The notes below the pieces were generated by a model. The model was not told the DNA's origin, ran no database searches, and saw nothing but the letters and a program-made list of their open reading frames with translations. The position numbers were made by a program, and so were the translations under genes. DNA of 33,171 bases from Campylobacteraceae bacterium (GTDB taxonomy: Bacteria; Campylobacterota; Campylobacteria; Campylobacterales; Sulfurovaceae): positions 1 to 33,171 of the forward strand of contig JALSOO010000155.1 of the NCBI GenBank assembly GCA_026986355.1, given 5' to 3'. This document shows positions 2,218-19,354 of this stretch, in pieces. Position 1 is the first letter of the stretch; the number at the start of each line of letters is the position of its first letter.

Positions 2218-3410
2218 ATCACACTTTCTCTTATCTTTTTATCTTTTAAATAGCTATATTTTATCATTTTATCATTTTCAAGAGCAATGCTCTTAATTAA
2301 TGATAGATATTTATTTACCACTATCTCTTCGGAAAAGTTCTCTATTACCTTTTTTCTGCCATTTCTTCCCATATAGATTAACTCTATATTCGATAAATTT
2401 AGCATTTTTTTCATTGCTTTGGCTAACTCTACACTATTTTTCACTTTGACTAGATAACCATTAACTCCATTATCTACTATATCCCTACAACCTGTAACAT
2501 CTGTTGTAATAATTGGCTTGGACATACTTGATGCTTCTAGTAAAACTCTTGATAACCCTTCACGATAAGAGGGAAGTACCACACAATCTACTTTATCAAT
2601 CTCATCTTGCACACTATCAGAGTGTCCAAGATACTCGATAAGTCCCTCATCTATCCAAGAGTCTAACTCATTTTGAGATATAGCAGTAGGATTTGAGTGA
2701 TAGAGTGAACCTAGAATTTTAAAGGTACATCTATTGGCATATTTAGTTGATTTAATTATACGTATTGCCTCAATATATTCACTAATTCCCTTATCTTTTA
2801 TCAATCGTGCAATCATCAAAAAGGTAAATTTTCTTTTGTTAGTTAAACTATTTTGTGACTTAAAACGGTTCGTATCAATACCTGAACCTAGAATTAAACG
2901 TGTATTATCCTCTTTTACTAATTTTTTTTCCATAAATAGAGTCATGTCATCACTATTTTGAAAAACTACAAGATTATTATAGATAGAGACTCTGTATAGC
3001 CAACGTGCTATATGAGAGGATAGGTTCTCATTTAAAAATACTGTTCCTAAGCCTGTTATATTATTTAAAGTAGGGATACTAAGAACTTTTCCAGCTAAGG
3101 AGCTGTAGATATTTGGTTTTATAGTATAGTTTAAAATCAAATCAGGTTTCAACTCTTTATAAAGTTTATAAAAATCATATATAAGCATTAAATCTACAAA
3201 AGGGTTTACCCCTCTATTATCTATCTTAATATTATGATATATAAAACCTTCATCTTCTAACTGTTGGCTATAGTCATCTCTTGGGGCTATCAATATAACC
3301 TTATATCCCTCTCTTTTTAATCTTCTAATAAGAGCTAATCTAAAATTATAGATATTCCATGATGTATTGACTACAATTGCTACTGTTTTTATTGAATTAT
3401 TATTTAACAT
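2214..3410 (-). CDS. Glycosyltransferase family 4-like
   Basis: GT-B fold signatures: PSYREGLSRVLLEASSMSKPIITTDVTGCRDIV. Confidence 0.85.
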   Translation of the reverse strand: MLNNNSIKTVAIVVNTSWNIYNFRLALIRRLKREGYKVILIAPRDDYSQQLEDEGFIYHNIKIDNRGVNPFVDLMLIYDFYKLYKELKPDLILNYTIKPNIYSSLAGKVLSIPTLNNITGLGTVFLNENLSSHIARWLYRVSIYNNLVVFQNSDDMTLFMEKKLVKEDNTRLILGSGIDTNRFKSQNSLTNKRKFTFLMIARLIKDKGISEYIEAIRIIKSTKYANRCTFKILGSLYHSNPTAISQNELDSWIDEGLIEYLGHSDSVQDEIDKVDCVVLPSYREGLSRVLLEASSMSKPIITTDVTGCRDIVDNGVNGYLVKVKNSVELAKAMKKMLNLSNIELIYMGRNGRKKVIENFSEEIVVNKYLSLIKSIALENDKMIKYSYLKDKKIRESVI

Positions 3411-4374
3411 ACTCTTTTACCTCTTCCATTGTAAGTGAGAGCATTCTATAATCGTCTTTAAGCTTTTGAAAATAGATAAGTAGCTCTTCTAAATTTTTTA
3501 AATTCTTCTCTTGATTTTCTCCAAAGTTATGAGGGTGCCACCATAGATGAAAATTCTCTTTGTGTATTGCTGAATACCTCATCGCTCTTTTGATTCTATA
3601 AATTTTTAATTTTTCTAAAAATGATAATTTTGGGAAATAGGGTCTTAACATTATGCTTGATTTTAGTTCCATCACTCCTTGTGTTGATTTTGGCTTACTG
3701 CAATGATGTCCTGATATATTTATATAGGTATCTACAAGTCTATATAGACGTAATAGAGTTGATTTGGAGGGTTTGTCTCCATCACTATATGCCCAATGAG
3801 TAGGATTGCCTCTATATGTTGATATATTTAAACTTTTTAAACTATTAATAGAGTTAGTGTCAATTTGATTACGAGGAAAAACTAATGATTTTAAGCTATA
3901 ACCTCTCTTTTGGGCTACCTCTATGGCTTTGGATATATCTATCTCAAAAGCCTCTTTTGATTTTAGAGGTTCATAGGTAAAAAAGTGAGAATAGGTATGT
4001 GTGGCTAACTCCTGATTTGGAGTTGAAGCAATAAGTGAGATAAGCTTTTTTGCTGTGTGCATTTTGGAGAACTCTTTGGAGTAGGGAGGTTTGAGAGTAT
4101 CTAGATAGATATAGGGGTCTACTTTTTTATCAATATAGTTAGGTAGCGTTGATGGTTTATCTTTTTGTATCTCTTCTATACTATCATAAAATAGAAATCC
4201 AACCGTTGCCCATGTTGCATGAATATTATATTTTTTAAAAAGAGCTAATATTTTTGGAATAACTGTATATACAGCTACTAAATTATCTTGATAGCTCTCT
4301 AGTGTTCTATTTGCTCGTACTCCCCAAAAGAGTTCAAAATCTAAAGATATAGTAAATGTTCCGTTACTACTCAT
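3400..4374 (-). CDS. Polysaccharide deacetylase (NodB-like)
   Basis: FTISLDFELFWG and LATHTYSH motifs; HATWATVGFLF. Confidence 0.8.
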   Translation of the reverse strand: MSSNGTFTISLDFELFWGVRANRTLESYQDNLVAVYTVIPKILALFKKYNIHATWATVGFLFYDSIEEIQKDKPSTLPNYIDKKVDPYIYLDTLKPPYSKEFSKMHTAKKLISLIASTPNQELATHTYSHFFTYEPLKSKEAFEIDISKAIEVAQKRGYSLKSLVFPRNQIDTNSINSLKSLNISTYRGNPTHWAYSDGDKPSKSTLLRLYRLVDTYINISGHHCSKPKSTQGVMELKSSIMLRPYFPKLSFLEKLKIYRIKRAMRYSAIHKENFHLWWHPHNFGENQEKNLKNLEELLIYFQKLKDDYRMLSLTMEEVKEYVK

Positions 4375-5539
4375 GACAAAGTACCTCTCTATATTGAGAT
4401 GATATATTTTCTACAGAGAACTCTTTGGCTCTATTAAATGCTCTCTCTTGATAGTCACAACTTATATTATCATTACTAAAAATATAGTATATAGATTTAA
4501 TTAAAGCATCAATATCACCAACACCATATAAGATACCAAACTTACCTATATCCATTCCAGAGGATAATTGTTTTGAACTATCACTATCAGGAGCTAATAT
4601 CTCTCTAGGTCCACTTAGACAATCACTAGAGATAACTACTGTTTTACATAACATTGCCTCTAATATAACATTTGGAAATCCCTCTACTGAAGAGGTTGAG
4701 ATAAAAACATCGGACCTTTTTATATACTTGAATGGATTCTCTACCTGTCCTAAAAAGTGAATACGTTTATCAACAGATAGCTCTTTGGCTAGTTGCTCTA
4801 ATCTCTCTCTCTCCTCTCCATTTCCCAATATAATAAGCTCAATATCTGACTCTAATCTACTAATTGCTTCTATCGCATCATGAAATCGTTTTAATGGGAT
4901 TAATCTACCTACTGCAATAATATATCGTTTATGACTCTTAAATATAAAATCATCTATAGGTTCACTAGACTCTTTTACTATACTATCTATATCATAGGGA
5001 TTATAGATAACTCTCTCACTCTCACTTCTAAAAAAGTGTCTATTAAAATCATTTTTCATTGCTATAGAGATATGGATAATTTTATTGGCTCTAGGATAGA
5101 GATACCTAATAAATAGTAGATTTATTTTACCAGATAGTCCCTCATTAAAAAATCGAGAGACAACAGAACGGTTAACTACTTGAACAGTATGTTTAGAACC
5201 AAATATATATGAGAGTAGATTTACAAAATTGGCACGAAATAGATAGCTTTGTACCAAAGGTATATTATGCTTTTTTATATATTGCCTCAATTTCCACGCA
5301 TGATATGGGATATAGAGCATTTTTCTTAGACCAGATAGTGAGTCGTCCATATTGGATAGAGATACTATCTCTACTCCTTTTGGAATAGTATAAAAATTAT
5401 TATTGGCTAATACCAAGATGGTTACTCTATGATTATCCTCTACAAATTGTTTAGATAGTGTTAAGATTGCTCTCTCTGCACCACCTTCGCAAAGAGAGTT
5501 GATAAGAAATACGATAGAACATCTCTTTTTATTAGACAT
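4367..5539 (-). CDS. Glycosyltransferase family 4-like (start re-assigned to Met12 of the listed ORF)
   Basis: GGAERAILTL and SSVEGFPNVILEAMLCKTVVISSDCLSGPREIL; AGAGG RBS 6 nt before the ATG of MSNKKRC. Confidence 0.85.
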   Translation of the reverse strand: MSNKKRCSIVFLINSLCEGGAERAILTLSKQFVEDNHRVTILVLANNNFYTIPKGVEIVSLSNMDDSLSGLRKMLYIPYHAWKLRQYIKKHNIPLVQSYLFRANFVNLLSYIFGSKHTVQVVNRSVVSRFFNEGLSGKINLLFIRYLYPRANKIIHISIAMKNDFNRHFFRSESERVIYNPYDIDSIVKESSEPIDDFIFKSHKRYIIAVGRLIPLKRFHDAIEAISRLESDIELIILGNGEERERLEQLAKELSVDKRIHFLGQVENPFKYIKRSDVFISTSSVEGFPNVILEAMLCKTVVISSDCLSGPREILAPDSDSSKQLSSGMDIGKFGILYGVGDIDALIKSIYYIFSNDNISCDYQERAFNRAKEFSVENISSQYREVLCHE

Positions 5540-6659
5540 AATCGACCTCTCTTTGATAAAAAATATTCTCATACTTTTTCATAATAGTAGTTTTGGAGTA
5601 ACGTCTATAGACCGAATCTCTAATGATTGACTCTTCAAATCCAAACTCTACTGCCTTGACAATAGTTTTAGCCAAAGCATAAACATCTCCATTTTCAACA
5701 GAAAATCCATTGATTCCCTCTTGAATAATCTCTGTTACTCCACCTTTACAGGCAAAAGCAACAATAGGTGTACCAACTGCATTTGCTTCTAGTAGTACAT
5801 TTGGAAATCCCTCATGTTCAGAGGTCAAGAGAGATAGATTAGCACTTTTCATATAGGGATAGGGGTTTGTTTGATGCCCCTCAAAATGGATACGACTATT
5901 AATATTTAACTCTCTACTTAAAGCTTTTAAATTATTCTCTTCTGCACCAGAGCCTACAATCATTAATGTATAGTTTATAGGTAAAAGAGAGAATGCTTTC
6001 AAGAGTAAATCGTGTCGTTTTCTTTTGCGTAGTGTTCCTACCGATATTAAAGATATTTGATTATCTTCAACTCTATTATCTATAGGTTCATCAGCTAACT
6101 CTTCTATCTTTGATATATCAATTGGATTATTAATCAACACTATTTTTGATGAGGTTTTAGGATAGTGTATCTCTAAATCTCTTTTCATATCTTCTGATTG
6201 AGCAATAATTACATCAAAATTTTTATAAACCTTACGATAGAGAGAGTCAAAAAGCTTAGGATACTTCTCCTCTTGGTTTTGCAATGAGACAATATTTGTC
6301 TCTCTTGAAATCCATTGTGTTTCTGGTAATAACTGTTTCATAAGAGGTATAAATGGAGCAATAGCAATATTTAGATGACCAATACCTGTAAAAACACTAT
6401 TTGGTTCTATTTTATAAATCTCTTTTAAACATTTAGATATACCTTTTTTGATAGATATAGCCTCCAAATCATGAACAGCAATAGATGGGTCAAGTAGACC
6501 CTTGAGTGTACCAATATTTTTAAAAATAATAAGGTGTACTTCATCTCCATTGGATAGAAAATGGTTTAGGATATTAACCATCATTCGCTCTGCACCACCC
6601 ATTGTTAATTCATGTATAACACCTACAATTCGTTGACTTTTTATTGAACTCTTTCTCAT
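5532..6659 (-). CDS. Glycosyltransferase family 4-like
   Basis: GGAERMMVNIL and SEHEGFPNVLLEANAVGTPIVAFACKGGVTEII. Confidence 0.87.
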   Translation of the reverse strand: MRKSSIKSQRIVGVIHELTMGGAERMMVNILNHFLSNGDEVHLIIFKNIGTLKGLLDPSIAVHDLEAISIKKGISKCLKEIYKIEPNSVFTGIGHLNIAIAPFIPLMKQLLPETQWISRETNIVSLQNQEEKYPKLFDSLYRKVYKNFDVIIAQSEDMKRDLEIHYPKTSSKIVLINNPIDISKIEELADEPIDNRVEDNQISLISVGTLRKRKRHDLLLKAFSLLPINYTLMIVGSGAEENNLKALSRELNINSRIHFEGHQTNPYPYMKSANLSLLTSEHEGFPNVLLEANAVGTPIVAFACKGGVTEIIQEGINGFSVENGDVYALAKTIVKAVEFGFEESIIRDSVYRRYSKTTIMKKYENIFYQREVDYV

Positions 6660-7414
6660 AGAAACAGCCTCTCTTGTATCTTTTTTAGAGCATAATAGGG
6701 TAGTGTATAGTAGTTATAACGGACTACTTTTACTCCTCCATGCGAAGCCTTGAATTTGTCAATCCCTGCCAAAGGAGAGTGTGGGTTATTGGTGTATCCA
6801 CCCCAATCAAAGGTGCTAAAGCCTAAATCTTTAAACTCCAATATTGTTTTCCAGTGAAGAGAGTGGTTTATCCACCCTATTTGAGCTTTTCTATGTATAT
6901 TTTGCTCTTTATATAGTGTTGATATGGAGTGTTGTAGACGTACTATTCCACTCTCTCTATCCAATAGATAGAGTTGAATATTGGTTAGCTCTCCATTCAA
7001 ATATCCTTTGATATAAAAGATATTATTACCATATTTATCAATAGATTTTTTGTTAATCATAGGTAGATTTTTAGCTTTTGCAAAATCTCTATAGGCTTCT
7101 AAAAATATCTCTTTGCTATCATAATCACAAGAGAGAGTAAAGGATTCTATCTTATCTGCTTTGCGTATTTCATTTCTGACATTGGATTTAAAAGTAGAAA
7201 ATATCTTCTCCTTATCATCTCTTAAATCATTAATTAAAGTATATAGTTTCTCTTTTTTTAACCCTATCGTATCTATATCAAATGTAGCTTGTCGATAGCA
7301 ATAGAGACCTGTCATTATCATAGTTTTGTTTAATTGCATTTTAGATGCGAACCAAAGCTCATTTAGCATTAATCCTTTTAATTTATAAGAAATTTTCAAC
7401 ATCTCTACATCCAC
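6656..7414 (-). CDS. FemAB/GNAT-like acyl- or aminoacyl-transferase
   Basis: FKSNVRNEIRKADKI, INHSLHWKTILEFKDLGFSTFDWGGYT, GIDKFKASHGG resemble FemAB-type EPS-locus proteins. Confidence 0.65.
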   Translation of the reverse strand: MDVEMLKISYKLKGLMLNELWFASKMQLNKTMIMTGLYCYRQATFDIDTIGLKKEKLYTLINDLRDDKEKIFSTFKSNVRNEIRKADKIESFTLSCDYDSKEIFLEAYRDFAKAKNLPMINKKSIDKYGNNIFYIKGYLNGELTNIQLYLLDRESGIVRLQHSISTLYKEQNIHRKAQIGWINHSLHWKTILEFKDLGFSTFDWGGYTNNPHSPLAGIDKFKASHGGVKVVRYNYYTLPYYALKKIQERLFL

Positions 7415-9300
7415 TTCTCATGCCACATTTGAAACATCAAAATAGACCATAATTGTTTAATACTTACATTTTTTCCATTTAAGTACTCATCACGCATTTT
7501 TATTACCTCATCTGTATTAAAATATCCCTCTTTATCTAATCTTTCACGACTTAAATAGTCCAAGAAATAGCCTTTTAATTCATCTCTAAACCACTCTCCA
7601 ATGGGAGGGGAAAATCCCATTTTAGGACGTTGCATCAACTCTTTTGGTAGATATTTATGAGTAATCTCTTTGAGTATCCACTTCTGTTCTCCATCTCTAT
7701 ATTTAAACTTAGAGGGGAGTTGTCCAGCAAACTCTATAATCTCTCTATCCAAAAAAGGCTCACGCCCTTCTAGTCCAACACTCATTGTTGCTCTATCTAC
7801 TTTGGTTAAGATATTATTGCTCATATATGTTTGATAATCTACTGCTAACATTTTAGAGAGGTCATCTAAAATCATTGAGCTATCCCTATCAAATGATGTT
7901 ATTAATTGATTAGGAGTAGAATCGAATAGAGTATATAGTTGAGAGTTAGTAAATTGTTGGGAGCGATACTTTAACATCTCTACAGTTGTTTTAGACGATA
8001 TTAGATTTTCAATCTTATCATAACGTGTCTCAAAATTATAGAGATAGGAGTGAAACGGGATACTCTTAGGAGAGATAGAAGCCATAATGGAGGAGAGACC
8101 CTCTTTCATCTTGTATGGAATCTTAGAGATTTTTTTTTGCATCTTTAAGATGTGAGCATACTCATCATATCCTGCAAAAATCTCATCACCACCATCTGCA
8201 CTAAGTGTTACCGTGACATCTTCTCGTGCTAATTGACTTACCAAAACGGTGGGAATTGCTGAGTCATCTGCAAAAGGTTCATCATATATTTCAGCCAATT
8301 TAGGGATAATATCCAACGCATCATTATGACTACAATAATACTCTGTATGATTTGTGCCTAGATGTTTAGCCACAGATTTGGCATGGGGAGATTCATCATA
8401 CCCTTTCTCATTGAATCCAATAGTAAAGGTATTAATCTTCTCATCTCTGTCTGATTGTAATATAGCCGTAACCAAGGAGCTATCGTATCCTCCACTTAAA
8501 AATACCCCAACAGGAACATCTGAAACCATTCTATAGTTAAATGCCCTCTTTAGTACCTCTTCTGTTTGGGTAATAGCCTCATCATCACTCAATAACAGTA
8601 GAGGTTTTTTGTAGCAATCTACTACTGACCAATACTCTATGGTCTCTACTCTTTGACTCTTTAAATCAAACTCCAAAATATATCCAGAGTTTAACTGTTG
8701 AGTATTTTTGAAAATAGAGTATGGTTGCATCACATAACCATACTGTAAATAGAGTGCTAATACATCTTTGTTAATCTCTTTTTTAAAATAGGGGTGTGCA
8801 TGAAAACTCTTTAGCTCACTAGCAAATAGGAAAACGCCATCTCTCCAGTACCAATAGAGTGGCTTTACACCTGCTCTATCACGAATAAGTGTTAAACGTT
8901 TCTCTTGTTTATCAAAGAGAGCAATAGCAAACATACCATTAAACTTTTCAATAGCATCTAATCCCCAACAGTGGTAGGCTTTTAGAATGACTTCTGTATC
9001 ACTTTGGGAGTGAAAATCGTAACCTAATAGTTTGAGTTCATCTCTAATCTCTTTAAAATTATATACCTCTCCATTGTATACAATCTCTAAATGTTCATAA
9101 CTCATAGGCTGTATACCCTCATCAGATAAATCTAAAATAGAGAGTCTTTGATGTCCTAATCCCACCGTAGTATCTGAAAGTTCGTGATATGATTGCCCAT
9201 GAGCATCATCTCCACGATGTTTAATCCTATCCATCATAGCAGATAGATTTTTACTACTGCTTCTCTTTGTAAAATCACAAAAACCGACTATACCACACAT
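7405..9300 (-). CDS. asnB: Asparagine synthase (glutamine-hydrolysing), canonical
   Basis: N-terminal MCGIVGF (Cys2), HQRLSIL, YNGEVYN, FLSGGYDSS, SADGGDEIFAGY, KVDRATM, REPFLD. Confidence 0.93.
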   Translation of the reverse strand: MCGIVGFCDFTKRSSSKNLSAMMDRIKHRGDDAHGQSYHELSDTTVGLGHQRLSILDLSDEGIQPMSYEHLEIVYNGEVYNFKEIRDELKLLGYDFHSQSDTEVILKAYHCWGLDAIEKFNGMFAIALFDKQEKRLTLIRDRAGVKPLYWYWRDGVFLFASELKSFHAHPYFKKEINKDVLALYLQYGYVMQPYSIFKNTQQLNSGYILEFDLKSQRVETIEYWSVVDCYKKPLLLLSDDEAITQTEEVLKRAFNYRMVSDVPVGVFLSGGYDSSLVTAILQSDRDEKINTFTIGFNEKGYDESPHAKSVAKHLGTNHTEYYCSHNDALDIIPKLAEIYDEPFADDSAIPTVLVSQLAREDVTVTLSADGGDEIFAGYDEYAHILKMQKKISKIPYKMKEGLSSIMASISPKSIPFHSYLYNFETRYDKIENLISSKTTVEMLKYRSQQFTNSQLYTLFDSTPNQLITSFDRDSSMILDDLSKMLAVDYQTYMSNNILTKVDRATMSVGLEGREPFLDREIIEFAGQLPSKFKYRDGEQKWILKEITHKYLPKELMQRPKMGFSPPIGEWFRDELKGYFLDYLSRERLDKEGYFNTDEVIKMRDEYLNGKNVSIKQLWSILMFQMWHEKWM

Positions 9301-10547
9301 CTTGCCACCTTTCGTAAACGGATAAAATAGAGATTATTTAGATAAAAATGGAATATCTTTACTAGAACTTCTGCCATAGCTAACCCATAGACACCATATA
9401 GTGGAATCAAGATAGCTACCAAGAGAAGATTTACGACTAGCGTCCAAAATGTTGATTTTGTTACATAAAAGCTTCTACTTTGTGTCACAAAACTTTGAGA
9501 ATAGAGTCCTCCTAATGGTGCAATGATTATAAAAAGACTCATAATCTGTAGTAACTCTACACTAATTAAGCTATCCTCTCCTACCAATAATCGAACAATA
9601 TCTTGGGCTGTAAAAAATAGAACTATAGCTATAAAAAACATTGTCAAGATAATACCTTGAAGAAATTTATAAAAAAGTTTATAATAGAACTCTCTATTCT
9701 CTATCCATTTTTTAGATAGATAGGGAAAGATAACTTGATTGACAATATCTCCTAAACTAACCAATGCAGAGACTACTTTATAGGCAACAGCATAATAACC
9801 AACCATGAGATGATTGGTAAATAGACCCAATATAAAGATATTACTTGAGGAGTAGAGTGTTACAGCTAATTTAGAGAGAAATATATGCCAACCCATTATA
9901 ATATATTGTCGTAAAACCCTATATGGTTGCCAAACGAAACGGATATTGAACTTTTTATGGATATAAAAGAGAGATAGTAAACCTACCATTATAAAGCCTA
10001 AACTATTAAAAAGTGGTACAAGATATATATCATCTTCTATTTTGACAAAAAGTAAAATAGCCAATAGAAAAAAGAGTTTAGCTACAATATTTAATATAGC
10101 GATATATCTCATCTTCTCAATGCCTTGGAAAAACCATATAGGAAAGAGAACCTCTCCTATAACCATTCCAAAGGTTAAGATATAGATAAGAGCATCTTTT
10201 CCCAAGCTATCAAAGAGCCATAAACTTAATAGTAAAATAGAGAAACCCAGAGACATTAAAAGAGATTTTATTATCATTACAGCTGAGAAAATCTCATTGA
10301 GCTTCTTGCTATCTTCTCTATAGATAGAAATCTCACGTGTAGCCGTTACATTAAATCCATAATCACTTAAAATCAGAAAATAACTAGAGAATGCTGTAGC
10401 CATAGCCAATAGACCAAAAAGTTCTATCCCTAACGTATATAGTAGATATGGTACAACCAAAAGAGGCAGTAAAAAATTTAGACCTTGAACCACTCCTAAT
10501 GCCAAGAAATTGGAAACAAGGACTTTACCCTCTCGTTTATTTATCAT
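9288..10547 (-). CDS. Wzx-type polysaccharide flippase (oligosaccharide flippase family)
   Basis: About 12 hydrophobic segments; LLPLLVVPYLLYTLG, PIWFFQGIEKMRYI, VGYYAVAYK. Confidence 0.85.
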   Translation of the reverse strand: MINKREGKVLVSNFLALGVVQGLNFLLPLLVVPYLLYTLGIELFGLLAMATAFSSYFLILSDYGFNVTATREISIYREDSKKLNEIFSAVMIIKSLLMSLGFSILLLSLWLFDSLGKDALIYILTFGMVIGEVLFPIWFFQGIEKMRYIAILNIVAKLFFLLAILLFVKIEDDIYLVPLFNSLGFIMVGLLSLFYIHKKFNIRFVWQPYRVLRQYIIMGWHIFLSKLAVTLYSSSNIFILGLFTNHLMVGYYAVAYKVVSALVSLGDIVNQVIFPYLSKKWIENREFYYKLFYKFLQGIILTMFFIAIVLFFTAQDIVRLLVGEDSLISVELLQIMSLFIIIAPLGGLYSQSFVTQSRSFYVTKSTFWTLVVNLLLVAILIPLYGVYGLAMAEVLVKIFHFYLNNLYFIRLRKVARCVV

Positions 10548-10657: not shown

Positions 10658-11353
10658 TTATATTTCATAAAAATCTGCTGTTGAACCACTTTGATACTCT
10701 ATATGTTTAATAAGTTTAAAGCTTTTACTTAAAATATCCAAAGAGGCATTTCCATAAATAAGATAGACATCATTTTTAAACAGTTTTCTTTGCTCTTTTA
10801 AATTAAATATAAACTTTTCCATTACCACCTCATCAAATGGATTAAATAGATAGATAACTGATACATCTAATGGAGGTAAAAACGTTGTAGCATCAGCATA
10901 AAAAGAGTCCACATTATCCAATTTTAATTTTTTGATATTCTCTTCTGCTACCTCATGAAGCTCTTTTGCAAACTCAACACCTATAGCTCTCTTGAATCCT
11001 AACTCTCTAGCATGAATAATCGCTGCTCCTTTACCACTTCCATAATCAATAAAGAGATTTCTATTTAGTGGCTTTCCAATAGCACTCTCTAAATCAGATA
11101 TGATTTTAGATAGGAAATCTTTTGAAGTAGAGACCAGTGCTGTACCATGTTCTTTATACTCTCCTGTTCTAGTCAAATCATATATATTTTGTGTAGAAAA
11201 ATCAAGTCCCCTTATCTTGTAATTGATACGTTGTCCTATCTTTTTAATCGTAGGTAAAAGACCATTCTCTCCAAGTGAATTTAGAACTTCTCCAAACTTA
11301 TAAGCAATTCCATTTTGATGTGACATGTCTGCATTTGTATGTGTGACTCTCAT
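10658..11353 (-). CDS. Class I SAM-dependent methyltransferase-like protein
   Basis: LFIDYGSGKGAAIIHARELGFKRAIGVEF motif I/II. Confidence 0.75.
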   Translation of the reverse strand: MRVTHTNADMSHQNGIAYKFGEVLNSLGENGLLPTIKKIGQRINYKIRGLDFSTQNIYDLTRTGEYKEHGTALVSTSKDFLSKIISDLESAIGKPLNRNLFIDYGSGKGAAIIHARELGFKRAIGVEFAKELHEVAEENIKKLKLDNVDSFYADATTFLPPLDVSVIYLFNPFDEVVMEKFIFNLKEQRKLFKNDVYLIYGNASLDILSKSFKLIKHIEYQSGSTADFYEI

Positions 11354-11516: not shown

Positions 11517-13340
11517 ATGCAAGATTTTTTGGGATTTATAGATTACAGTAGAACCGAACCAATAATAGATATTAACGATTATAATTTCGAGATATATCAA
11601 GAGAAGTATGCACTATTTAATATCTTTTTATCATATAACATAGGAATTAATGCAACCCATTTAAATAATAAAAATATTTTTATAACTCTTTTTGGTACTA
11701 TCAATAATCAATCTAAATTAAGGAGATTATTGCATAGAGATACTTCTATATCAGATATAGAACTTATGGCAGAAGCCTATAAAAGATGGGGATTGGAGTT
11801 TATCAAAATCATAGAGGGTTCATTTGCAATTATGCTCTATGATAAAAACAGAGAGATACTTGTTCTATTAAAAGATAAAATTGGAAAAATCCCTATTAAC
11901 TATTATGAATCAGATAATAAAATTATTTTTACCTCCTCTGTTCAACGATTCAAAGAGGTATCTACTTTTGTTCCCTCTATCAATCCTCAAAGTCTAGCTT
12001 CATATCTCCAATTTGGTGTTGTTTTGCAACCAAACACTATATTGACAAACTGTTATAAGGTAAAAGCTGGAGAGTATATAGAGTTTAATCTACTCAAAAA
12101 AGAGTCAAAAGAGCATATATATTGGAGATTAGAAGAGTGTTACTCTAATCCTAAAAGAGATGAATCAGAAACTTCTATTATAAATAATGCTCATAAACTT
12201 CTTAGAGAATCGGTAGAGAAGAGTTATTTAACAGATAAAAGAGTTGCACTCTCTCTTAGTGGTGGATATGATAGCTCAACTCTTGCCTCTATACTACAAG
12301 AACAGAGAGAGATAGATACCTTTACCATTGGGTTTAATCAAGAGAGCATTAATGAAGCTAAAGAGGCAAAAGCAATTGCAAAGCATCTAGGTACAAAGCA
12401 TCATGAATACTATTTTAGAGCCAAAGATGCGTTGGAGATTATTCCTAAACTCTCTCAAATTTATGATGAACCTTTTGCAGAGTATGGAGCGACACCTACA
12501 CTATTAACAGCACAACTTATTCGTCAAGAGGGTATTGATAATATTGTCGTAGGAGATGGAGGAGATGAAGTTTTTGCAACGGCTGATGATGTATCATTTT
12601 TTCACCGTATTGATACTATACCTCAACATAGAAGAGAACGATTATGCTCTCTATTAAAACGTATTCCAATTAATAAGATACCATATTTGGAGAAAAAATA
12701 TAATTTACCAACAAAATGTAGCAAAATTTTTAATATTATATCGTCAAAAAATATTCCAAAAATGGTAGAGGCCAAAAATATACTCTTTAGAGAAGATGAA
12801 CTCCACCTTATAATACAAAATTATACAAATCCTATTTTAACAACCTTTGATGATATTAATTTTGATGGACACCATGAGACAGTAGATGAGATTATTGGAA
12901 CATATTTTAAAACAACTATGACCGATGGAGAGTTAGTCAAAAGTTATAGAGCTATGAATAACTATAATATCTCTTTGCATACCCCCTTTTTAGATGAACA
13001 ACTTATATCATATATGGCAACCATTCCTAGCTCTATTAAGATAAAATATGGCATTAAAAAGTATATTTTAAAAGAGATAGCCCATCAATATATTCCTAAA
13101 GCTCTTTTAGACCGTCCAAAGCGTGGTTTTGATATTCCATTTTCATCATGGATGAGAAATGAGTTAAAAGAGTTAGTCTATTCACAAATAAATGAGAAAA
13201 GGTTAAACGAAGATAAACTATTTTATACTTCTTTTATTATTAATATTAGAGATAGTTTCTATCAAGGAAACGACTCCTATAAATATAAACTGTGGAGACT
13301 CTTTCTCTTTCAACTTTGGTATGAAAATTTTAAAGGATAA
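11517..13340 (+). CDS. AsnB-family ATP-dependent ligase with degenerate glutaminase domain
   Basis: ATP-pyrophosphatase motifs SLSGGYDSS and VVGDGGDEVFA retained; N-terminus MQDFLGF lacks Cys2, and FGTINN replaces NGEVYN. Confidence 0.85.
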   Translation: MQDFLGFIDYSRTEPIIDINDYNFEIYQEKYALFNIFLSYNIGINATHLNNKNIFITLFGTINNQSKLRRLLHRDTSISDIELMAEAYKRWGLEFIKIIEGSFAIMLYDKNREILVLLKDKIGKIPINYYESDNKIIFTSSVQRFKEVSTFVPSINPQSLASYLQFGVVLQPNTILTNCYKVKAGEYIEFNLLKKESKEHIYWRLEECYSNPKRDESETSIINNAHKLLRESVEKSYLTDKRVALSLSGGYDSSTLASILQEQREIDTFTIGFNQESINEAKEAKAIAKHLGTKHHEYYFRAKDALEIIPKLSQIYDEPFAEYGATPTLLTAQLIRQEGIDNIVVGDGGDEVFATADDVSFFHRIDTIPQHRRERLCSLLKRIPINKIPYLEKKYNLPTKCSKIFNIISSKNIPKMVEAKNILFREDELHLIIQNYTNPILTTFDDINFDGHHETVDEIIGTYFKTTMTDGELVKSYRAMNNYNISLHTPFLDEQLISYMATIPSSIKIKYGIKKYILKEIAHQYIPKALLDRPKRGFDIPFSSWMRNELKELVYSQINEKRLNEDKLFYTSFIINIRDSFYQGNDSYKYKLWRLFLFQLWYENFKG

Positions 13341-13553
13341 ATCATCGAAACATGTATCGCACCTGTAAATAGTAGAAAATATACAAAACCTACAATCTCT
13401 TATGATATTTGGCATAGAGATAAGTTAGATAGACTATTAACCCTTATATATAGACAGTTAGAAACTAGAGATAAATCAACTGTTATTGTCTTAGAGATTG
13501 CACACTTTTCACTACCCTTAGAGGCAATAAATAGAGAGTGGGCAAAGCGTAAT

Positions 13554-14171
13554 ATGAGCTTTGCCAATGAACTCTGTGGTCAAATTATAAAAAAACATCA
13601 ATATAAATTCAAGATTATTCCTATAATACTTTTAAATAATTTAGATGATGACCATAGTGAAGAGTCTGAACTATTTATAGATGAGTTAGTAGAGGGACAA
13701 AAATATATTCGTGCAGAATCTATTAGAGTTGTATCAGAGAGAAATCTAAAAAATAGAGCATTTAAAGCACTAAAACGAAACAAGAAACTTGCTGATAGCT
13801 TTATCAATATAGATGGAAAAGCTTATCTAAAAGATGATGAGTATCAACATGATTTAGCAGCAGGATTTGTAAATGATGATGGTAAAATTATCCCTAGATG
13901 TGGTCTAATCTTGACAAGCTTTTTAGATACTGTTGCTAAATTCGCAAACGATAGACTCCATCAAAAGTCAGATGCTAATGTTCTTTTTATCTCTTTCTCA
14001 GAAGAGTTCCATGAGTATCAAAGAGTAAAACTTGGTGTTGATATATATACACGAACACATAAACAAGCAACTATACACCCGATTATACTCCACTGGTCAT
14101 ATGAAATCGACCAATGTTTAAGCTCTTTTAGAGAGTGTAATACTCAAGAGTGGCATGAAGAGGAGTTATGA
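13554..14171 (+). CDS. Conserved-looking hypothetical protein; N-terminus probably extends upstream to about 13341-13344
   Basis: 205-aa ORF from first ATG; same frame is open back to 13341 and reads as coding (ISYDIWHRDKLDRLLTLIYRQLETRDKSTVIVLEIAHFSLPLEAINREWAKRN). Confidence 0.65.
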
Positions 14172-16325: not shown

Positions 16326-17269
16326 TATTTAAACATCAATAGTATATATAAAAACATAAAGATATAAACCCAAAATTTTATATGTCTATTCTCAATATAT
16401 CCTATTGCAATAACTATTATAGGCATAATAACAGCCACATAACGTTGAGCAAACACCCCTAATATAGATGCAAAAAAGAAGAAGCTCATAAATACAATGG
16501 CATAACCTGCAATAATACGCTCTTGGCTATTATGAAAATCTCCAAAGGTACTTATAATAAAAGCTATCATAAACCAAACTATAGAGTAGGCGATAGAACT
16601 ACCTGCCGAAATATTTCCATATCCTGCATGTCTATCTCCAATAGCAAAAAGTATGGCATCTAATCCAAATTTCATAAATAGAGCGATAGCTAAAGCAACT
16701 ACCAAAGAGATAAAATAGTATTTTCTAGGTTCAACACGGCTATTATAGTAGTATAAAATAAAATAGACACCTATAAATATAGGCATAGAGGAGTGTATAA
16801 AGAACGCTACTATTGCTAAAATAATCTTGATATACCGAGATGATAAATCATAAGCAAATAGTAGTATCCCAAAAGCTAAAGTTATTCGTACCTGTTCTAT
16901 AAAGAGATTCACTGACATGGGATTTAGTAACAACAACATCACTACATACCACTCTACTCTTCTAAAAAAGAAAGAACCATAGAGAACCATTGCAATAAAA
17001 GAGATAACATATAGTGCAAAACGGTAATCATTAAAGGTGATACCTAGAAGATATAATATTCCTCTCCATATAGGTTCACTAAATAGTATTTTTATACCTG
17101 TTATCTCTGCCTCTTTTCCTCCCTCTTGTATATATACAATACGAAAAATATAGTTAGCTGTATCGGCAAACTCTCGTCCTAATATATCAACCCAAGGTAT
17201 TAAAAATACATAAATTGTAGCATAAACAAAAGCCCATATCCAATAGTTTTCATACTCTCTACTCTGCAT
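16301..17269 (-). CDS. EpsG/Wzy-like polysaccharide polymerase
   Basis: Polytopic membrane protein between Wzx and methyltransferase genes; EpsG-like pattern (YRFALYVISFIAMVLYG, LLLLNPMSVNLFIEQVRITLAFGILLFA). Confidence 0.7.
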   Translation of the reverse strand: MQSREYENYWIWAFVYATIYVFLIPWVDILGREFADTANYIFRIVYIQEGGKEAEITGIKILFSEPIWRGILYLLGITFNDYRFALYVISFIAMVLYGSFFFRRVEWYVVMLLLLNPMSVNLFIEQVRITLAFGILLFAYDLSSRYIKIILAIVAFFIHSSMPIFIGVYFILYYYNSRVEPRKYYFISLVVALAIALFMKFGLDAILFAIGDRHAGYGNISAGSSIAYSIVWFMIAFIISTFGDFHNSQERIIAGYAIVFMSFFFFASILGVFAQRYVAVIMPIIVIAIGYIENRHIKFWVYIFMFLYILLMFKYWLELVLM

Positions 17270-17976
17270 TACTTAATAACTAAAAAGCCCTCAAAATTCA
17301 TATATTTCTGTACTGATAATATATCAACAAAACCTGCACGTTTTAACATATCTATATTTCCCTCGGTTGAGAAGGGTTCTAATACCCCTTTTAGGCTTCT
17401 TGCTTTGGATATAATCTCTTTGGCATCATAACCTTGGTCAAGCTTATACTCCATATAGAGATTGGAGATAATATCTTGAAAACGTGCATCATTGGCTCTC
17501 ACTTTTTCATATAAAATAAATGCTCCACCCCAATTTAGAGATTGATAGATTTTATTAATTAGCTGTTGTCTAAGTTTTGGGTGAATAAACTGAATCGTAT
17601 AGTATGAGACAATTAAATCTGCTTTTTCTAATGTAATGGTATTCATATCATCACAAACAAAAGAGAGATTAGAACTTTTATAGAGTTGATTTGCCTTTTT
17701 TACCATATCTCTCTCTATCTCTATACCTATAAATTTAGCATCTCTAAAACTATGTCTTTTAGCTAATTTATGGGTCAATGTACCAGCAGATGAGCCAAGC
17801 TCATAACAGATAGAGTCATCTTTGACAAAATAGTCACTAAGCTTAGTAATAAGTTCATGCCCCTCCTCATAGAGAGGTACAGATTTTTTTACATGCTCTT
17901 CAAAATGCTCTACCATAGAGCCATTAAATTTCCAATTTGCATTTTTTGCATCAATTTTATCACCAGACTGTCCCAT
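17269..17976 (-). CDS. CmoA-like SAM-dependent methyltransferase
   Basis: CYELGSSAGTLTHKLA, YTIQFIHPKLRQQLINKIYQSLNWGGAFILYEKV, LKRAGF, MNFEGFLVIK resemble the CmoA family. Confidence 0.7.
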   Translation of the reverse strand: MGQSGDKIDAKNANWKFNGSMVEHFEEHVKKSVPLYEEGHELITKLSDYFVKDDSICYELGSSAGTLTHKLAKRHSFRDAKFIGIEIERDMVKKANQLYKSSNLSFVCDDMNTITLEKADLIVSYYTIQFIHPKLRQQLINKIYQSLNWGGAFILYEKVRANDARFQDIISNLYMEYKLDQGYDAKEIISKARSLKGVLEPFSTEGNIDMLKRAGFVDILSVQKYMNFEGFLVIK

Positions 17977-18058: not shown

Positions 18059-19354
18059 CTATATTTTTCTCCCTAACCATTGAGGATAGGAGAAGCGATT
18101 ATCATAGTTATACATTATCGTTAAATAGTCTGTTTGATAGTTCCAATTATTAGAACCAATACCCCATTGGCTATCTTCTGTGGTATTTAAGGAGTAGAAA
18201 TAAGCTCTACTCTTTAAAACTCTTTTAGTCTCTTTTAGGTAGTAATCTAAATACTCCTTGGACATAAAGGCTAATGATGAGGCATTTATAACCAAATCAA
18301 TACTCTTATCTTGGATATAGTCCAATATAAATGGTGGAACAATAATAAAATCATAATCCTCTATAACTGACTCCAAATCATCTAAATAAGGATAGATATC
18401 TTCTAAAAGAGCTATCTTTTTATTTGGAAAATTGTACTTTAAAAAGTAGGCTGTTAAAAGGAGAGTTTCAGGTAAATCTATAAGTATCTGTGTCGTATTT
18501 GGTGTGTAGTAGTGTAAAATTCTACTACTTCCTCCAAATCCTACACCAATATCCAAAATTATATTGCGTCTATTGCTTGAAAAGGGTACATGTTTAATAA
18601 TATCATTAGCAACGACTAGATTTTGTAGTAACTGTTCACTTAATCTATTTCCTCTATAGGTAATTGATTTATAATTTCCTGCCATACTTTCCGATATAGA
18701 TGCTAAAATCTCTTTGTCTATTTTGGACGCAAAACGATGATACTCCATAACCAAATCAATAGCATCTAAATAGCTCTTTTTATATCCATCTTTTATCTCT
18801 ATATAGGAGTATTGATTATTAAATATTTTTGTATATATTGCAGGGTCTCCCCTAAAGTTCTCTAGGCTCTTTTTTATAATTTGATTGTGTTTATCAAAAA
18901 ATAGCTCTCTAAACTCTTTGGATATTCTATCCCACTCACTGCTAATATCTTTACTATCGTGGTTGTATGCCAATAGAAATGAGTTTGTTATCTTTTTATA
19001 GAAGCTATCTTCTATCTCAACCTCATCTATCTGAGCCATTGGGGATTTAGGATATAGGATATTATTGTTCCCTTTTAGATACATCTGCTTATAGTCTATC
19101 TTATCAAATCCATCTATCAAGATACTCTTTTTAAATATTTTATTATTTGAGATAAGTGCTATAAACTCTTTGAACATAAATAGTAATCTTCCAAAGCCAT
19201 TATAAAATAGTATAAATTTATAGGGACAACGATGAGCATTAGTTCTATGAAGTAGAAATTGTGACTGTTTCTGATATATCAGAGAGTCAAAAGATGAAAT
19301 AACTACTCGTCTAAAGAGAATGAGACGCTGTTTTAACCATTTGAGATAAATCAT
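18059..19354 (-). CDS. Putative sugar O-methyltransferase
   Basis: ILDIGVGFGGSSRILHYYTPNTTQILIDLPETLLLTAYFL and DKSIDLVINASSLAFMSKEYLDYYLKETKRVLK; RBS AAGGAATAAAT-ATG. Confidence 0.65.
   Translation of the reverse strand: MIYLKWLKQRLILFRRVVISSFDSLIYQKQSQFLLHRTNAHRCPYKFILFYNGFGRLLFMFKEFIALISNNKIFKKSILIDGFDKIDYKQMYLKGNNNILYPKSPMAQIDEVEIEDSFYKKITNSFLLAYNHDSKDISSEWDRISKEFRELFFDKHNQIIKKSLENFRGDPAIYTKIFNNQYSYIEIKDGYKKSYLDAIDLVMEYHRFASKIDKEILASISESMAGNYKSITYRGNRLSEQLLQNLVVANDIIKHVPFSSNRRNIILDIGVGFGGSSRILHYYTPNTTQILIDLPETLLLTAYFLKYNFPNKKIALLEDIYPYLDDLESVIEDYDFIIVPPFILDYIQDKSIDLVINASSLAFMSKEYLDYYLKETKRVLKSRAYFYSLNTTEDSQWGIGSNNWNYQTDYLTIMYNYDNRFSYPQWLGRKI

Follow-up and report, generated by a model that had tools for sequence, protein, structure and literature searches.

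We report that P0001, a 607-residue AsnB-fold protein encoded at positions 11517-13340 of the forward strand of the window (the whole 33,171-nucleotide stretch of DNA analysed, from a Campylobacteraceae bacterium), has, judged by its sequence, a catalytically dead glutaminase half and an adenylating half that is intact and under constraint, and that the dead AsnB gene travels with the gene of a partner protein (13344-14171, forward strand; 275 aa) that forms a new family. On balance, we favour an amide ligase role for P0001, dependent on ATP but not on glutamine, in which it uses an amine and acts on surface-polysaccharide sugars together with this partner. AsnB-fold amide synthetases without a glutaminase are a known kind; what is new is a clade of them in polysaccharide loci of a group of sulfur-oxidising bacteria, tied to an unnamed partner family.

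Results

The N-terminus of P0001 reads MQDFLGF where that of its paralogue P0002 reads MCGIVGF, and the open reading frame translations confirm the claim of an earlier note on this DNA that the nucleophile Cys2 is absent. The ATG is preceded by an AAGGAG Shine-Dalgarno sequence and the frame is open for just 16 codons 5' of it, with no MCG start among them, so that a Cys-containing upstream start, the objection which that note had itself raised, is not to be found there. The N-terminal glutaminase (Ntn) domain (residues ~1-200; 11517-12116, forward strand) is vestigial: the alignment shows the HRGPD and HxRLS loops as either deleted or beyond recognition, and FGTINN stands in place of NGEVYN, in agreement with the note, which had found this replacement and no counterpart of HQRLSIL. 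The Pfam model GATase_7 matches from residue 50 only, at 63.7 bits (145 bits for the paralogue), and TIGR01536, the model for glutamine-hydrolysing AsnB, reaches 256.9 bits, below its equivalog cut-off of 267.1; without the Cys2 nucleophile and the glutamine-binding loops, P0001 falls outside that family. The domain is ~30-45 aa shorter in several relatives belonging to one sublineage. Loss of the Cys is neither chance nor an assembly slip, because the homologues with a readable N-terminus in the 175-genome family, and those elsewhere in the order, are all Cys-less.

The synthetase half presents a different picture. It matches PF00733 (Pfam) over residues 227-603 (6e-69; 233.7 bits vs a curated cut-off of 21) and carries SLSGGYDSS, GDGGDEVFA, KSYR, PFLD and RPKRGF. 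The AF2 model (pLDDT 90.9) retrieved the two-domain AsnB-fold enzymes TsnB9, AsnB, ASNS, beta-lactam synthetase and CarA with Foldseek (E 1e-18 to 1e-25). We then compared residues between 26 members of the Cys-less clade and 22 canonical relatives. The ATP-pyrophosphatase (PP) loop SLSGGYDSS (12252-12278, forward strand, as are the motifs that follow) keeps SGGYDS in 26/26; GDGGDEVFATA (12552-12584) retains its acidic residues and has Thr-Ala where canonical relatives have Gly-Tyr; E472-L-V-K475 (12930-12941) combines a Glu that is invariant in the clade, vs Ile/Val in canonical relatives, with a Lys present in 26/26; and RPKRGF (13113-13130) contains the catalytic Lys535, which aligns with Lys449 of Escherichia coli AsnB and Lys443 of beta-lactam synthetase. 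Asp347, Asp350, Lys475 and Lys535 are each found in all 26 proteins and Glu351 in 25, at a mean identity of ~45% (calculated for 23 of the 26). One point of the earlier note needs correcting: across the clade the Lys of KSYR is kept in 26/26, but its Arg is not conserved, the position being mostly Ser, Gln or Thr.

Cys2, HRGPD, HxRLS, NGE, KVDR and EGR have gone from the clade. Three changes are fixed in it, namely Gly-Tyr to Thr355-Ala356, Ile/Val to Glu472 and Asp-Tyr to Tyr463-Phe464, which signals that the substrate site has changed. The relative PesC, which converts a carboxylate to an amide and a nitrile, requires a Glu-Tyr pair five residues apart, and its Y368F variant is dead (PMC13060819). 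In the corresponding DExFxGY dyad of the Cys-less clade, mapped by motif spacing, the Glu is kept and the Tyr is replaced by Ala in 26/26; on this spacing, the PesC dyad Tyr would be the position that is now Ala. The pattern of residues kept, lost and newly fixed is one of repurposing, not decay.

A profile search of the 175 family genomes recovered Cys-less AsnBs at 678-1074 bits in 15 genomes of one genus, together with an additional 163-aa fragment at a contig edge in G174, of the same genus; Cys-containing relatives reached at most 517 bits and occurred in 10 of the 11 genera. Matching public records carry the names Sulfurovum and Campylobacteraceae. In a tree that included 12 of them, the Cys-less AsnBs grouped as a single clade (100/100) whose stem is long, at 1.68 changes per column; it was placed next to the EPS-type AsnBs and away from this genome's two other AsnBs, and a quick tree with 14 more sequences from other groups of the order still united all 26 on one branch (SH-aLRT 100). 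In these sequence trees the clade is sister to the Cys-containing EPS amidotransferases (WbpS/TIGR03108-like) and lies outside ordinary AsnB, the grouping that the earlier note had set as a challenge to its own reading. The clade spans two family-level groups of the order, and probably a third (f1, f12 and f13 in the codes assigned by the search tool; f13 is a single genome). Acidobacterial matches were rejected as members: they begin with MCG, and the tree places them outside the clade.

The partner is present in 13 of the 175 family genomes and the dead AsnB is immediately upstream in 13/13. Three dead-AsnB carriers were without it. In G156 and G174 the contig runs out at this point, and in G166 (L061 2150-2300, contig C182) the AsnB runs at residue ~577 into the partner's final codons (QAWHEVEL-stop), a junction with the partner 3' end that represents a deletion or misassembly, so that G166 was rejected as an exception. 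Searches of the phylum and order gave 16 further close partner loci that were read, in 15 genomes (G411 included), and a Cys-less AsnB is in the locus at 14 of them, including that of G565, where the AsnB has its N-terminus cut off; G595 has just an AsnB C-terminal fragment in its partner locus, with its Cys status unseen, and the stretch of G625 stops at the partner gene. The two genes adjoin in 12 of these loci; at both loci of G587 and in G600 they are 2-6 kb apart. Two distant f22 relatives of the partner (L124 6296-7180, L125 5431-6240) lie beside a glycosyltransferase, and the stretch that was read there contains no AsnB. Pairwise distances of AsnB and partner were correlated in a mirror-tree comparison (r = 0.81; 0/2000 permutations as high), to which shared descent contributes.

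The partner family has no relative in Pfam, NCBIfam or PDB sequences; PDB profile searches returned nothing, BFVD none better than 1e-3, and no copy was found on plasmids. Its invariant residues are E51, H54, N98-N99, PRCGLI, E224 and R227. The partner model (pLDDT 81) gave weak Foldseek matches to ArgRS, CysRS and NadE (E 1e-4 to 1e-3, TM ~0.4), and a reading of the partner as an aminoacyl-tRNA synthetase of class I or as a HUP enzyme was rejected when hhalign against ArgRS and CysRS alignments found nothing.

The listed ATG open reading frame of the partner (13554-14171) is N-terminally truncated, as 70 codons 5' of that ATG are conserved in homologues, and the start codon is probably the AUC at 13344-13346. 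Of the 13 copies in the genus, 10 have ATC as codon 1, 2 have ATA and 1 (G165) has ATG; G411 has ATG at the equivalent protein position. From the in-frame stop that precedes it up to codon 1 there is no ATG, GTG or TTG; in the 12 non-ATG copies the next in-frame one lies 31-70 codons downstream. ATT accounts for 64% of the Ile codons in these genes, yet for none of these 12 first codons. A Shine-Dalgarno-like AAAGGA (13332-13337, forward strand), which overlaps the AsnB C-terminus and abuts the AsnB stop, is found in 13/13 copies and sits 6 nt 5' of codon 1 in the non-ATG copies; G172 retains it though it is out of the AsnB frame there. Variation by codon position over codons 2-70 (0.30/0.18/0.49) is highest at the third position, as is typical of coding sequence. 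From these observations we infer that the partner is translated from AUC. There are precedents in infC, which begins at ATT in E. coli and at ATC in Streptomyces and is repressed by IF3 (PMC5472188). Stop-codon readthrough fusing AsnB to its partner is disfavoured: the two frames match in 12 of the 13 copies and differ in G172, as they do in G411, and the residue that separates stop from start is not constant, which favours a separate partner start. Such an AUC/AUA start, conserved in most copies of one genus, would be a rare instance of non-AUG initiation that lends itself to testing; a gene caller limited to ATG, GTG and TTG shortens the partner protein.

In the window and most related loci, the AsnB-partner pair is surrounded by flippases, glycosyltransferases, a deacetylase, MBOAT, an O-acyltransferase and O-methyltransferases. 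The reverse strand of the window encodes a polysaccharide deacetylase-like protein (3400-4374), with a homologue right next to the partner gene in 5 related loci; a GNAT/FemAB-like protein (6656-7414) with a weak TIGR03019 match, VimA-like by context; P0002 (7405-9300), whose strand the earlier note had left unstated, a canonical Cys-containing AsnB-type amidotransferase of WbpS/TIGR03108-like type (36% identity to P0001; TIGR03108 562.1 bits, under the cut-off of 816.9); a Wzx-type polysaccharide flippase (9288-10547); a divergently transcribed SAM methyltransferase (10658-11353), whose 10 strong matches in the 175 genomes are all in dead-AsnB carriers; and a NanM-type putative sugar O-methyltransferase (18059-19354), a recurrent neighbour that is distributed more widely in the genus. 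The CmoA-like gene at 17269-17976 (149 bits vs a cut-off of 193.3), also of wider occurrence in the genus, is 80-92% identical across many of its genomes and could encode a methyltransferase put to a new use. On contig C30 of this genome (G000), another polysaccharide locus has two further Cys-containing AsnB-type genes at L007 9995-11830 and 14131-15978, one with a GTG start. Near the pair in G587, L118 6482-7474 encodes a TupA-like ATP-grasp (PF14305, 1e-62), possibly another amide-forming enzyme. No EpsH was found in the genome and an exosortase link was rejected.

WbpS, VimA and VimE produce an amidated, aminoacylated sugar in other systems (PMC7468200). Next to its WbpS-like gene the window has genes for deacetylase-like and FemAB/GNAT-like proteins (3400-7414), an arrangement reminiscent of the Vim/Wbp genes that serve aminoacylated uronamide sugars; we offer this parallel as a lead.

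Discussion

Amide ligation on a surface glycan, already suggested in the earlier note, is still the best reading of P0001, because the synthetase residues are invariant in the 26-member clade and the neighbours are mostly polysaccharide genes; AsnB and partner probably act together in decorating cell surface polysaccharide. The PP-loop domain would bind ATP-Mg and adenylate a carboxylate, for example that of a uronic acid or of an acid destined for an amino sugar. The acyl-AMP would then be attacked by an amine, not by glutamine-derived ammonia, as in beta-lactam synthetase, and the deacetylase-like neighbour may expose that amine. The partner could bind or present the substrate or nucleophile, or perform the next step, and the methyl- and acyltransferases might decorate the same glycan. 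A precedent is the C-terminal domain of Campylobacter jejuni Cj1438, which ligates an ATP-dependent amide on glucuronic acid of a Campylobacterota surface glycan using serinol or ethanolamine phosphate (PMC12096443); no homology with P0001 is claimed. Against a polysaccharide role stands G411, where the pair has three methyltransferases nearby and is outside any evident polysaccharide cluster.

Beta-lactam synthetase and CarA share with P0001 the AsnB fold, a dead Ntn domain, an intact PP loop and the catalytic Lys (Foldseek E ~1e-20), yet they are not nearest in sequence, and P0001 has a polysaccharide neighbourhood with no beta-lactam genes nearby; the two lineages have by all appearances a separate origin. 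The dyad Tyr of beta-lactam synthetase, Tyr348, presumably corresponds to Asp347 of P0001, and the invariant Glu472 lies at most 2 residues from the dyad Glu (by ungapped extension from Lys535/beta-lactam synthetase Lys443). As Asp347 is also the residue of canonical relatives, these residues give no proof of an amine acceptor. Lasso peptide cyclases of the McjC/LasC type likewise form amides in an AsnB-like manner without glutamine; P0001, however, scores 104.1 bits against NF033535 (cut-off 525) and has polysaccharide genes around it, with no peptide cluster. The nearest relatives in the tree are WbpS, WbqG and eps_aminotran_1 (TIGR03108), which have in common with P0001 a long synthetase half and an occurrence in polysaccharide loci, and WbpS is known for uronamide formation (PMC7468200). 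Unlike these enzymes, P0001 has a dead glutaminase, has lost the dyad Tyr, shows KSx in place of KVDR and reaches 259.6 bits against the TIGR03108 cut-off of 816.9.

A rather unlikely alternative is that P0001 makes a primary uronamide from free NH4+, through the chemistry that the WbpS-like enzyme next to it uses. The sister clade is of the uronamide-forming WbpS type (PMC7468200), AsnB-type enzymes accept ammonia instead of glutamine (PMC13060819) and the acidic Asp347 is kept. The dyad Tyr is nevertheless Ala in 26/26, and most carrier genomes have a canonical EPS-type AsnB, which would make another enzyme for primary amides redundant. More speculatively, and with a similarly small chance of being right, the dead AsnB and its partner might form an obligate two-component amide synthetase of a kind not described before: AsnB would adenylate the glycan acid, the partner, as a new enzyme family faintly resembling aminoacyl-tRNA-synthetase-like folds, would activate or deliver the amine, and, in the genus of the window, the conserved AUC/AUA start would set their ratio.

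The earlier note had also considered P0001 as the synthetase subunit of a heteromer that receives ammonia from the adjacent canonical AsnB, a proposal that our comparisons have weakened and that we now find distinctly improbable. The window and several relatives do have a canonical AsnB in the locus, and in G557 and G646 dead AsnB, partner and canonical AsnB follow in that order in one run. Within one genus, however, two unrelated canonical AsnB types accompany the dead AsnB; the Cys-containing EPS-type AsnBs of G411 are on other contigs; there is no canonical AsnB within the 13-19 kb read in G628, G583 and G591; G156 (80% complete) showed no other AsnB, and G166 (94%) none of the EPS type; and the canonical enzyme has a complete synthetase half of its own. 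The association with the 13344-14171 partner, which the note had missed, is stronger than that with the canonical AsnB. That P0001 is a pseudoenzyme serving as scaffold or regulator for the partner, as the strict genetic tie and the partly changed active site (dyad Tyr) might suggest, is scarcely plausible when the PP loop, the two Lys and the acidic residues do not vary over 26 proteins (mean identity ~45% for 23 of them).

Most known examples of AsnB-fold enzymes that have given up glutamine and taken on amide-ligase chemistry come from antibiotic and peptide pathways. If the surface-glycan amide ligase reading is true, clade-wide amide ligation in surface-polysaccharide loci would represent a new route to amide-decorated glycans, and the partner family, absent from Pfam and NCBIfam, would gain its first functional handle.
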